A DNA stretch of 54,766 nucleotides from an uncultured Methanobrevibacter sp. (GTDB lineage: Archaea; Methanobacteriota; Methanobacteria; Methanobacteriales; Methanobacteriaceae), in contig NZ_CACWVY010000023.1 of NCBI RefSeq assembly GCF_902764455.1, forward strand, positions 1 through 54,766, read 5' to 3'. A program made the position numbers and the translations under genes. Positions 15,125-19,248 of the stretch are shown piece after piece. The notes under the pieces are model-generated. The model saw only the letters and a program-made list of their open reading frames with translations. It did not search any database and was not told the DNA's origin. The stretch's first letter is position 1, and every line of letters begins with the position of its first letter.

Positions 15125-15715
15125 ATGGCAATTGAACTTGACAGCACTGAGGAAAAAATAGTAAGCGCAACCTATAAAATCCTTCTACGAGACGGCAGGG
15201 ACAAGGCTACAACCAAAAGAATATCCAAAGAGGCCGAAGTCAATGAAGTAACAATATTCCGGAAGTTCAAAACCAAAAAGAACCTGATTGAAATTACCGA
15301 AGAATATTACCTCCAACGCTTTCAGGACACTGTTGAAAATATTTTTGAGTTTAATGAAGATGATGAGCTTGAAGATTATCTTCAAAAAAATTTTAAAGGA
15401 ATGTTAAATCTTCCTGAAGAAGAATTCCGTATAATTAAAATAGCTATGGAAGAAGTGGACGATGTTTTAAGCAAAAAACTTATAATCGCTTTAATTACAG
15501 ACACTATCCTTAAAAAATATGAAGAATTCTTTACCCTTCAAATCGAAAAGGGTAAAATCAGGGATGTTGATGTGAAGGCCATAAGCCTGACTGTTTTCAG
15601 TATAACATTCCAGTCTGTCGTTTTATGGAAAGTATACAACAAAACTCCTAATGAAGAAACAAGAGATCTTTCAGAAAGTTTACTGGACATCATCTATAAC
15701 GGAATCAAACCTTAA
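15125..15715 (+). CDS. TetR family transcriptional regulator
   Basis: A 196-residue regulator. The N-terminal helix-turn-helix is plain: TEEKIVSATYKILLRDG, then TTKRISKEAEVNEVTIFRKF with the YxYF-like recognition turn, then KKNLIEI. The C-terminal part is all-helical, as in TetR ligand and dimer domains. The frame remains open for 50 codons upstream, but that stretch reads as untranslated promoter sequence, and the ATG used here puts the HTH at the usual place. TATA-like sequence directly precedes it, so the mRNA may be leaderless. The structured RNA array, the AEC transporter and the micropeptide array lie downstream. It is a candidate ligand of the shared palindrome there (inference). Confidence 0.88.
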   Translation: MAIELDSTEEKIVSATYKILLRDGRDKATTKRISKEAEVNEVTIFRKFKTKKNLIEITEEYYLQRFQDTVENIFEFNEDDELEDYLQKNFKGMLNLPEEEFRIIKIAMEEVDDVLSKKLIIALITDTILKKYEEFFTLQIEKGKIRDVDVKAISLTVFSITFQSVVLWKVYNKTPNEETRDLSESLLDIIYNGIKP

Positions 15716-15830: not shown

Positions 15831-15940
15831 CATTTAAATTTAAAAATAAGATTATATTATAACTATTTTATCTAAAAAAATATAATTATTTCATTTTAAG
15901 TCAAAAAAAACAATATAAATAAGCAAATATATGTAAAAAT

Positions 15941-15973
15941 CTTTATATATGGATAGTTTCATATATTTAATTG
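15941..15973 (+). promoter_or_regulatory. promoter of structured RNA unit 1
   Basis: TATA box CTTTATATAT, then GG, then TTAATTG ending 33 bases from the box start, identical in spacing to units 2 and 3 and to the micropeptide promoter. The palindrome found in the other three is decayed here to an AT-rich string around a conserved AAGC, so unit 1 may escape the shared control. Confidence 0.75.
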
Positions 15974-16115
15974 TGCCTTGAAGTAATTCAAAGGCACAGT
16001 CAAAAAAAATCATTGACCCATTAAGTGAATATCCGAATTTATTTTCGGAATATTCCCGTTTTAATTAGAAAATTGGGAGGCCATACTCCCAATTTCTCTA
16101 AGAACTAATTTTTTT
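15973..16115 (+). ncRNA. structured RNA, unit 1
   Basis: Predicted to start at the G of TTAATTG, 27 bases from the TATA centre. Stem 1 is GTGCCTTGAA paired with TTCAAAGGCAC. Stem 2 is GAATATCCGAA paired with TTCGGAATATTC, with one bulged A. Stem 3 is AATTGGGAG paired with CTCCCAATT around a very short loop. A run of seven T near 16109 is a likely end. It is the smallest copy: the loop of stem 3 is about 6 bases rather than about 30, and the later GGGAATA hairpins are degenerate. A non-coding RNA of no known family as far as I can tell. Confidence 0.7.
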
Positions 16116-16283
16116 ATCCATTTACCTGATTTGAGGAACAAAAAATATCACCTGCTTGAAAAACTTATATGATTTTAGAGAGAATATAAATATCCCATAT
16201 CCTAATTTAAATTTAAAAATAAGATTATATTATAATTATTTTATCTAAAAAAGCATTATTATTTCTTTTTAAGCCAAATAACA

Positions 16284-16303
16284 ATGCAAGTAAGCACTTG
16301 CAT
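16284..16303. promoter_or_regulatory. palindromic operator of RNA unit 2
   Basis: A perfect inverted repeat, ATGCAAGT-AAGC-ACTTGCAT, ends 8 bases (GCGAAAAA) before the TATA box of unit 2. The size and symmetry suit a dimeric helix-turn-helix protein. At this upstream position it could recruit an activator or interfere with TFB/TBP. The same geometry recurs at unit 3 and at the micropeptide operon. Confidence 0.78.
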
Positions 16304-16311
16304 GCGAAAAA

Positions 16312-16344
16312 CTTTATATATGGACAGTTTCATATAATTAATTG
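16312..16344 (+). promoter_or_regulatory. promoter of structured RNA unit 2
   Basis: GCGAAAAA serves as the likely BRE region, then CTTTATATAT, then GG, then TTAATTG ending 33 bases from the box start. Spacing is identical in all copies. Confidence 0.78.
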
Positions 16345-16610
16345 TGCCTAGACAAACACACTGGCACAGCCAAAAAAAAATCATTGACCCTTTAAATGAA
16401 TATCCGGATTTATATCCAAAATATTCCCGTTTTAATTAAAAAATTGGGAGTCCATAAAATACACACCTCGAACATATAATAAACTCCCAATTTTTCTTAA
16501 AACTTATCTTTTTATTCATTCACACGATTCGGGGAATAAAAATATTCCTCAAATCTAAAACTAATCGTTTTTACCATATTGGAGGGAATAGAAATATTCC
16601 CTCACCCTAT
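16344..16610 (+). ncRNA. structured RNA, unit 2
   Basis: Stem 1 is GTGCC/GGCAC. Stem 2 keeps GAATAT/ATATTC with an inner GGAT/ATCC. Stem 3 is AATTGGGAG/CTCCCAATT around a loop of about 35 bases containing CACCTC. Two further hairpins follow: GGGGAATA/TATTCCTC, and a perfect 9-pair GAGGGAATA/TATTCCCTC capped by a GAAA tetraloop of the GNRA kind. The 3' end is uncertain. Stem sequences differ from unit 3 in ways that preserve pairing, for example the GAGGG and TTGGGG versions of the last stem. Confidence 0.72.
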
Positions 16611-16720
16611 TTTAAATCAAAATAAAAACTACACCTGCAGTATTTAAATTTAAAAATATGAGTTTATTTTAATTATTTTATTTAAAATAGCATTATTATT
16701 TCTTTTTTAGGCAAATAAGA

Positions 16721-16740
16721 ATGCAAGTAAGCACTTGCAT
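16721..16740. promoter_or_regulatory. palindromic operator of RNA unit 3
   Basis: The same perfect palindrome as at unit 2, ATGCAAGT-AAGC-ACTTGCAT, again 8 bases (GCGAAAAA) before the TATA box. Confidence 0.78.
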
Positions 16741-16748
16741 GCGAAAAA

Positions 16749-16781
16749 CTTTATATATGGATAGTTTCATATATTTAATTG
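16749..16781 (+). promoter_or_regulatory. promoter of structured RNA unit 3
   Basis: CTTTATATAT, then GG, then TTAATTG at the shared spacing, with the predicted transcript start at the G before TGCC. Confidence 0.78.
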
Positions 16782-17030
16782 TGCCTGGGACGAACTCACA
16801 AGGCACATAAAAAATTCATTAACCCTTTAAAAAAATATCCGGATCAAATCCGGAATATTCCCGCATAAATTAGAAAATTGGGAGACCCATAAATAGCATA
16901 CCTCTAAAATTAACTCCCAATTATCTTTAAATTGATCTTTTGATTCATTCACAAGATTTGGGGAATAGAAATATTCCCCAACTCTTTAAATTTATGGTTT
17001 TACCATATCGGGGAATAAAAATATTCCCCC
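16781..17030 (+). ncRNA. structured RNA, unit 3
   Basis: Stem 1 is TGTGCCT/AGGCACA. Stem 2 is AATATCCGGAT paired with ATCCGGAATATT with the same bulged A as unit 1. Stem 3 is AATTGGGAG/CTCCCAATT with a loop of about 30 bases holding ACCTC. A perfect 10-pair stem TTGGGGAATA/TATTCCCCAA follows with a GAAA loop, then GGGGAATA/TATTCCCC with an AAAA loop. Transcription may run on to the hairpin at 17083. Confidence 0.72.
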
Positions 17031-17082
17031 ACTCCCTTTAATTTAAATTTACTTAAAAAAAAATTTTCTCCATTTAATCCCT

Positions 17083-17106
17083 GGGAGATTTTTAATTAAA
17101 TCTCCC
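17083..17106. terminator. hairpin between RNA array and AEC gene
   Basis: A 9-pair stem, GGGAGATTT/AAATCTCCC, with a 6-base loop, followed by TATTTTTT on the plus strand. It sits between the last RNA unit and the convergent AEC transporter gene, so it could end transcription from both sides. Confidence 0.55.
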
Positions 17107-17126
17107 ACACACTACAAAACTATTTT

Positions 17127-18805: not shown

Positions 18806-18829
18806 TTAGAGATCAAAGAAATCACACAT
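18806..18829 (-). CDS. micro-ORF 4, seven-residue peptide MCDFFDL
   Basis: GGAGGCG with a 5-base spacer precedes an ATG that opens only seven codons, MCDFFDL, then TAA TAA. The leader matches the other units (GGAGGYGAAATY-ATG), so the ribosome binding site is conserved although the peptide is unrelated in sequence. This is either a genuine heptapeptide with one cysteine or a strongly diverged unit of the array. Confidence 0.5.
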   Translation of the reverse strand: MCDFFDL

Positions 18830-18852
18830 GATTTCGCCTCCAGTAATTTAAT

Positions 18853-18906
18853 TTAGAAACTTTCGAATTCTTTTAAAACTTTAATGGTTTCTTCCAAACA
18901 GCTCAT
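18853..18906 (-). CDS. micro-ORF 3, 17-residue peptide
   Basis: It encodes MSCLEETIKVLKEFESF, identical to micro-ORF 2. A perfect GGAGGTG stands 5 bases before the ATG. The helix would be amphipathic, with L4, I8, V10, L11, F14 and F17 against charged E and K, and there is one cysteine at position 3. No membrane segment is present and no known family is recognised. Too short for standard gene calling. Confidence 0.75.
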   Translation of the reverse strand: MSCLEETIKVLKEFESF

Positions 18907-18941
18907 AATTTCACCTCCAACAATTTTATCTTGAAATACTA

Positions 18942-18995
18942 TTAGAAACTTTCGAATTCTTTTAAAACTTTAATGGTTTCTTCCAAACAGCTCAT
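18942..18995 (-). CDS. micro-ORF 2, 17-residue peptide
   Basis: It encodes MSCLEETIKVLKEFESF with GGAGGTG at 5 bases. It repeats unit 3 at a period of 89 bases, including the intergenic part. Identical peptides with almost unchanged codons suggest recent duplication or conversion, or selection for dose. Confidence 0.75.
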   Translation of the reverse strand: MSCLEETIKVLKEFESF

Positions 18996-19051
18996 AATTT
19001 CACCTCCAACAATTTAATTTTTGAAAAGCTATTAGAATCCTTCGAATTCTT

Positions 19052-19117
19052 TTAAAACTTTAATAGTTTCTTCCCGAATTCTTTTAAAACTTTAATAGTT
19101 TCTTCCAAACAGCTCAT
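19052..19117 (-). CDS. micro-ORF 1, 21-residue variant peptide
   Basis: First in the transcript. It begins MSCLEETIKVLKEF and then diverges to GKKLLKF. The cause is an exact 32-base tandem duplication (19043-19074 and 19075-19106) that shifts the frame; without it the peptide would end EFEGF, almost as in the other copies. The ribosome binding site is AAAGGTGA, weaker than in later units. About 71 bases of leader separate it from the predicted transcription start. Confidence 0.7.
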   Translation of the reverse strand: MSCLEETIKVLKEFGKKLLKF

Positions 19118-19210
19118 ATTTTCACCTTTTAAATTTTTTTTAATTCAACAACTGAATACAAATTTTTTGTTTTGAACTTGTCATGTCCAATTAATACTTT
19201 ATACAAGACC

Positions 19211-19248
19211 ATATAAATAGTTTTTCGAATGTAAGTGCCCACTTACAT
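19211..19248 (-). promoter_or_regulatory. promoter and palindromic operator of the micropeptide operon
   Basis: Read on the minus strand: palindrome ATGTAAGT-GGGC-ACTTACAT, spacer TCGAAAAA of 8 bases, TATA box CTATTTATAT, GG, then TTAATTG ending 33 bases from the box start, giving a start near 19188. Every element and every distance matches the promoters of RNA units 2 and 3, 2.5-3 kb away on the opposite strand. The remaining sequence to the next gene on the right is the promoter region of the zinc-ribbon operon and holds one CGTTAATGT site at 19332 and GATATATAT near 19359. Confidence 0.8.

Follow-up and report, generated by a model that had tools for sequence, protein, structure and literature searches.

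Tandem units behind a TetR-family gene in Methanobrevibacter as probable regulated structured RNA genes

What is encoded by three tandem repeats that lie directly 3' of a gene for a TetR-family regulator in an uncultured Methanobrevibacter sp. (GCF_902764455.1, contig NZ_CACWVY010000023.1), and by what are they controlled? The window, that is, the whole stretch of 54,766 nt analysed here, had been described in an initial annotation as containing, in these repeats, a new class of archaeal non-coding RNA. The reading that we favor, with a probability of roughly 0.6, is that the repeats are tandem, free-standing structured RNA genes placed behind the TetR gene and belonging to a regulon probably controlled by that TetR. 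Small RNAs are known in methanogens, an example being the trans-acting sRNA162 of Methanosarcina mazei (PMC3510493). Like the window units, sRNA162 comes from a free-standing gene for a structured RNA with its own promoter (PMC3510493), but no common sequence or structural family links the two, and the window units differ in their tandem arrangement, in the palindromic operator that they share and in having a TetR gene as neighbor.

Layout, folding and coding potential of the units

The three direct-repeat units start at positions 15832, 16205 and 16642 of the plus strand (unit 1, 15832–16204; unit 2, 16205–16641; unit 3, 16642–17059). With unit 2 as the reference, the aligned units are 74% (unit 1) and 81% (unit 3) identical, and the upstream 145-nt blocks 66% and 92%, respectively. 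The order of elements is the same in all three, as the initial annotation had recognized: an AT-rich block, a TATA box, the motif TTAATTG, located about 24 nt past the TATA box and running into a TGTGCC/GGCACA hairpin (stem 1, the 5' leader hairpin), stem 2 with one bulged A, TTCCCG, stem 3 (AATTGGGAG/CTCCCAATT) and the GGGAATA hairpins. Stems 1 and 2 are separated by CATTGACCC or CATTAACCC.

In units 1, 2 and 3, in this order, folding places stem 1 at 15970–15999, 16342–16369 and 16779–16807, and stem 3 at 16071–16094, 16442–16492 and 16876–16922. Stem 2 is found at 16027–16055 and 16834–16859 in units 1 and 3 (folding and pair comparison), and at 16398–16426 in unit 2 (pair comparison), with TTCCCG at 16424. 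Stem 3, GGGAG/CTCCC in units 2 and 3, encloses a loop of 6 nt in unit 1 and of about 30 nt in the other two (33 nt in unit 2, with ACACCTC at 16463; 29 nt in unit 3, with TACCTC at 16899). Two GGGAATA hairpins are clear from folding in unit 2 (16531–16603) and in unit 3 (16960–17029), and degenerate in unit 1; their loops being either GAAA or AAAA, depending on the copy, the earlier description of them as GNRA-capped is true only in part. The view of unit 1 as a reduced form is borne out, its TATA box and stems being kept and its operator and long stem 3 loop lost.

Relative to dinucleotide shuffles, the folding energies of the three units have z-values of –5.3 (unit 1 to 3 range to –7.5; the middle value is –6.3), with 0 shuffles as good, and the columns invariant among the three copies are concentrated in the stems (53 of 61, vs. 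79 of 121 elsewhere in the body; p = 0.0013). The three copies show little covariation: a two-sided change with pairing kept (A-U to G-C) is seen in one of 25 core pairs. The statement that the stems keep pairing through changes was thus overstated, having this one change in its favor and, against it, two broken core pairs in stem 2 of unit 2; the stems of unit 1 are perfect in the same comparison. No protein frame fits the units, in agreement with the first description, the longest frames (31 and 33 aa) being devoid of a ribosome-binding site, and the units pass a strict non-coding rule (no ORF of at least 70 aa, and ribosome-binding sites absent from the vicinity of any start codon), which also drops some sites that look non-coding by eye.

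The window and ten related loci gave 0 families above the gathering threshold in Rfam 15, and tRNAs were ruled out, none being detected. A covariance model built from the three copies and run against 67 genomes of the genus retrieved these three copies, with E-values of about 1e-38 to 1e-40, and everything else at E ≥ 0.26, the unit bodies occurring in no other of these genomes; given that the model finds just its own three copies, an RNA family is not visible at the sequence level. Of the class proposed initially, structured archaeal non-coding RNAs in tandem stand as the best reading, with Methanobrevibacter as the host, but a class defined by sequence does not, over these 67 genomes. A mobile element was also considered and rejected, as full units are found nowhere else in the genome and the remaining matches cover mainly the promoter part. 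A genus-wide search with the pattern ATTTATATA-N-CATTRACCC was uninformative, because the TATA spelling used misses even the units of the window.

A palindromic operator shared with genes for small secreted proteins

Each unit has a promoter of its own. In units 2 and 3, which both carry ATGCAAGTAAGCACTTGCATGCGAAAAACTTTATATATGG, the TATA box is preceded by a 20-bp palindrome, ATGYAAGT-N4-ACTTRCAT, hereafter the operator; the promoters at 16284–16320 (palindrome 16284–16303, TATA 16313–16320) and 16721–16757 (palindrome 16721–16740, TATA 16750–16757) match the genus-wide pattern exactly. In unit 1 (promoter 15913–15949) the operator position is degenerate, with 8 mismatches to the pattern, indicating that the operator has been lost while the TATA box (15942–15949) remains. 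This control context, the two palindromes and their degenerate counterpart, had escaped the initial annotation. With up to two mismatches, 42 of the 67 genomes of the genus have the promoter pattern, at 180 sites in total, whereas its reversed control gives 0 sites in the same 67 genomes; all 38 named GTDB records with the promoter are Methanobrevibacter.

Several tandem operators beside a regulator gene could also be decoys, arrays that merely titrate the regulator and whose transcripts are by-products. Such a role is very improbable: regulator titration leaves unexplained why unit 1, with its operator lost, should have kept its TATA box and perfect stems, and a decoy would have no use for a TATA box, a leader hairpin or a GGGAG/CUCCC element.

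When up to four mismatches are allowed, 206 distinct operator sites could be read. An ORF of at least 70 aa lies downstream of 119 of them, and in 107 of these 119 its product has a hydrophobic, signal-peptide-like N-terminus. Most sites thus precede small secreted proteins, and a minority precede structured RNAs that are non-coding, often arranged in tandem and unlike one another in their bodies; further targets are a small zinc-ribbon-like protein and a series of microproteins. The former, a conserved protein of about 60 aa (MKMHKICPRCGSRNVDWIIPQNWSQC...) that looks like a zinc ribbon, is found behind the operator at L039, L091, L105, L148, L151, L160, L240 and other loci; microprotein operons lie behind it at L149, L153, L154, L157, L163, L259, L260 and L251, and MTFEEAVEEIWRYNGLI exemplifies a microprotein so placed in several species. 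The window itself contains another member of the regulon, on the minus strand at 18806–19248, in which operator and TATA box (19248–19212) lead into a tiny ORF present in three tandem copies (MSCLEETIKVLKEF...) and into MCDFFDL, all of them provided with a ribosome-binding site. The tandem copies read MSCLEETIKVLKEFESF or a longer variant, and their 17–21 aa sequence occurs in no other of the 67 genomes.

The leader hairpin is common to coding and non-coding members: over 50 nt at the point where the RNA is predicted to begin, the mean folding z is –1.09 for coding and –1.50 for short or non-coding members, compared with +0.06 and –0.57, respectively, further on. The units resemble the genes for adhesin-like or small secreted proteins of Methanobrevibacter in promoter and leader hairpin, which are the same, and differ from them in having no reading frame. 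Since such protein genes also occur as tandem copies (e.g., at L137), the units might be decayed secreted-protein genes, left over from a duplication of promoter and leader hairpin with loss of the coding part. We consider this improbable, because decay of a protein gene leaves unexplained the conserved stems, which downstream of the leader change less than the loops; the folding z-values of –5 to –7.5, the absence of a frame from the units and the presence in three other species of non-coding units behind a TetR gene, sharing CUCCC, also speak against it.

Linkage of the operator to the TetR-family gene

The gene upstream of the units (15125–15715, plus strand) encodes a protein of 196 aa with a TetR_N domain (Pfam, E 7e-7), and in many species homologues of this protein show linkage to the palindrome. 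Another homologue, 51% identical to it, is encoded in the same genome (G000:C14:25913-26491, minus strand). Among the 33 readable TetR loci, 15 have the palindrome (up to two mismatches) within about 1.5 kb, the expectation from the density of full promoter sites being about 0.005 sites per TetR locus. Non-coding units directly 3' of the TetR homologue are present, besides the window, in G064 (two, in tandem), G036 (two) and G023 (one), that is, in four species including that of the window. In a further two genomes, G011 (L068) and G017 (L067), both lacking the full promoter pattern, the palindrome lies across the start of TetR itself, which suggests autoregulation.

Co-occurrence points in the same direction. 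Operator sites are present in 31 of 34 genomes with a close TetR homologue (E ≤ 1e-45) and in 11 of 33 without one (p = 7e-7, uncorrected for kinship), and the three TetR genomes scored as operator-less include G036 and G064, whose operators deviate slightly from the pattern. For the 11 operator genomes without a close homologue, another regulator, gaps in the assembly or divergence must be allowed for. As far as such sequence comparisons go, the link between the TetR protein and the palindrome regulon is probable. A dyad of about 20 bp with a central spacer, near the regulator gene and, in two species, over its own start, is what would be expected of a TetR-family operator; a difference is that here the dyad, to which binding is predicted, lies upstream of the TATA box on most targets. 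In archaea, a dyad in this position more often means activation.

Non-coding members in other species and possible modes of action

Strictly non-coding operator sites number 17, in 15 species. CTCCC occurs at 14 of these 17 (shuffle mean 1.07) and at 22 of the 187 other sites, and GGGAG, GGTGAG or GTGAGAA is found ahead of it at 8 of the 17 (shuffle mean 0.01), compared with 10 of the 187; in a wider hand-picked list, which is not independent evidence, the GGGAG-type element precedes CTCCC in 18 of 37. The ATTRACC linker is a weak candidate for a hallmark of the class (4 of 17 non-coding sites vs. 10 of 187 others). In a sister group, non-coding RNAs of about 115 nt are present in G077 (three copies in tandem), G005 and G084 (two copies in each genome) and G008 (one copy); in their consensus fold, an inner hairpin is enclosed by pairing of GGUGAGAA with UUCUCCC, and four pairs are changed on both sides. 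The C run in the hairpin loop of the G008 RNA (L199:163 onward) is possibly a length-variable tract. What recurs across species is the control site, the position behind the TetR gene, the 5' leader hairpin and the GGGAG/CUCCC element, and the RNA bodies differ.

The GGGAG/CUCCC hairpin could also be a mere terminator or 3'-end cap, uninformative as to the function of the RNA. It is followed by U-rich sequence in the predicted RNA of the window and by a U-run in several species, and a GGGAG hairpin is also present at 17083–17106, behind a convergent transporter gene; however, of 36 other genes of the window only 2 have CTCCC in the 200 nt behind them, as do 23 of 108 coding genes of the regulon, the former count having led us to reject it as an ordinary terminator sequence. 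A terminator or cap is therefore possible, though we would not expect it, and it is compatible with the units being RNA genes.

The promoter without a frame, the conserved stems, the occurrence of non-coding units at the corresponding position in other species and the shared CUCCC together make regulated structured RNA genes the best reading of the units, and that they are regulated non-coding RNA genes is likely. In this reading, the TetR protein would bind the palindrome, which lies upstream of the TATA box in target promoters and, in two species, across the start of TetR itself, such that the RNAs would be made together with surface proteins; unit 1, having lost its operator, would not share this coupling. 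The predicted RNA begins about 24 nt past the TATA box and would include, in this order, the 5' hairpin, CATTRACCC, the second hairpin, TTCCCG and the GGGAG/CUCCC hairpin.

Such an RNA may act post-transcriptionally as a small RNA, with the C-rich segments UUCCCG, CUCCC and ACACCUC (the last in the unit 2 loop) pairing with G-rich ribosome-binding sites of mRNAs. In a computation ignoring accessibility and covering part of the genome, six start regions of the regulon had no advantage in duplex energy over 36 control genes (p 0.38–0.74), which counts against the simplest form of this step; given these limits of the computation, pairing is retained as a tentative and rather doubtful mechanism. 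The same lack of a pairing preference for co-regulated mRNAs, and the recurrence of hairpin order and GGGAG/CUCCC in spite of bodies that differ between species, would suit an RNA working via a protein partner, for which the 5' and GGGAG/CUCCC hairpins would be handles and the fast-changing parts irrelevant, but we regard this alternative as unlikely.

Tandem paralogous regulatory RNAs, with several similar genes under one regulator, are known in bacteria, the Qrr RNAs being an example. By analogy the window units may be compared with them, as several similar RNA genes with one putative regulator; they differ in having an archaeal promoter, bodies that are not conserved between species and no known chaperone. 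What is new here is that one operator is shared, that it is linked to TetR and that the RNA bodies turn over fast, the operator and its RNAs being absent from the open literature searched, which leaves out most subscription journals. It is conceivable, at somewhat less than even odds, that the window units represent a genus-wide class of small RNAs of gut methanogens, set apart by no common sequence but by control site, leader hairpin and GGGAG/CUCCC element, with bodies that turn over fast and wired to a TetR that also controls secreted surface proteins. Methanobrevibacter species are major methane producers of gut and rumen, and the control of their surface proteins is largely unknown; with a promoter signature of 37 nt and a candidate regulator, the regulon is open to direct tests, and its RNAs would exemplify wiring that is conserved while the RNA content changes fast.
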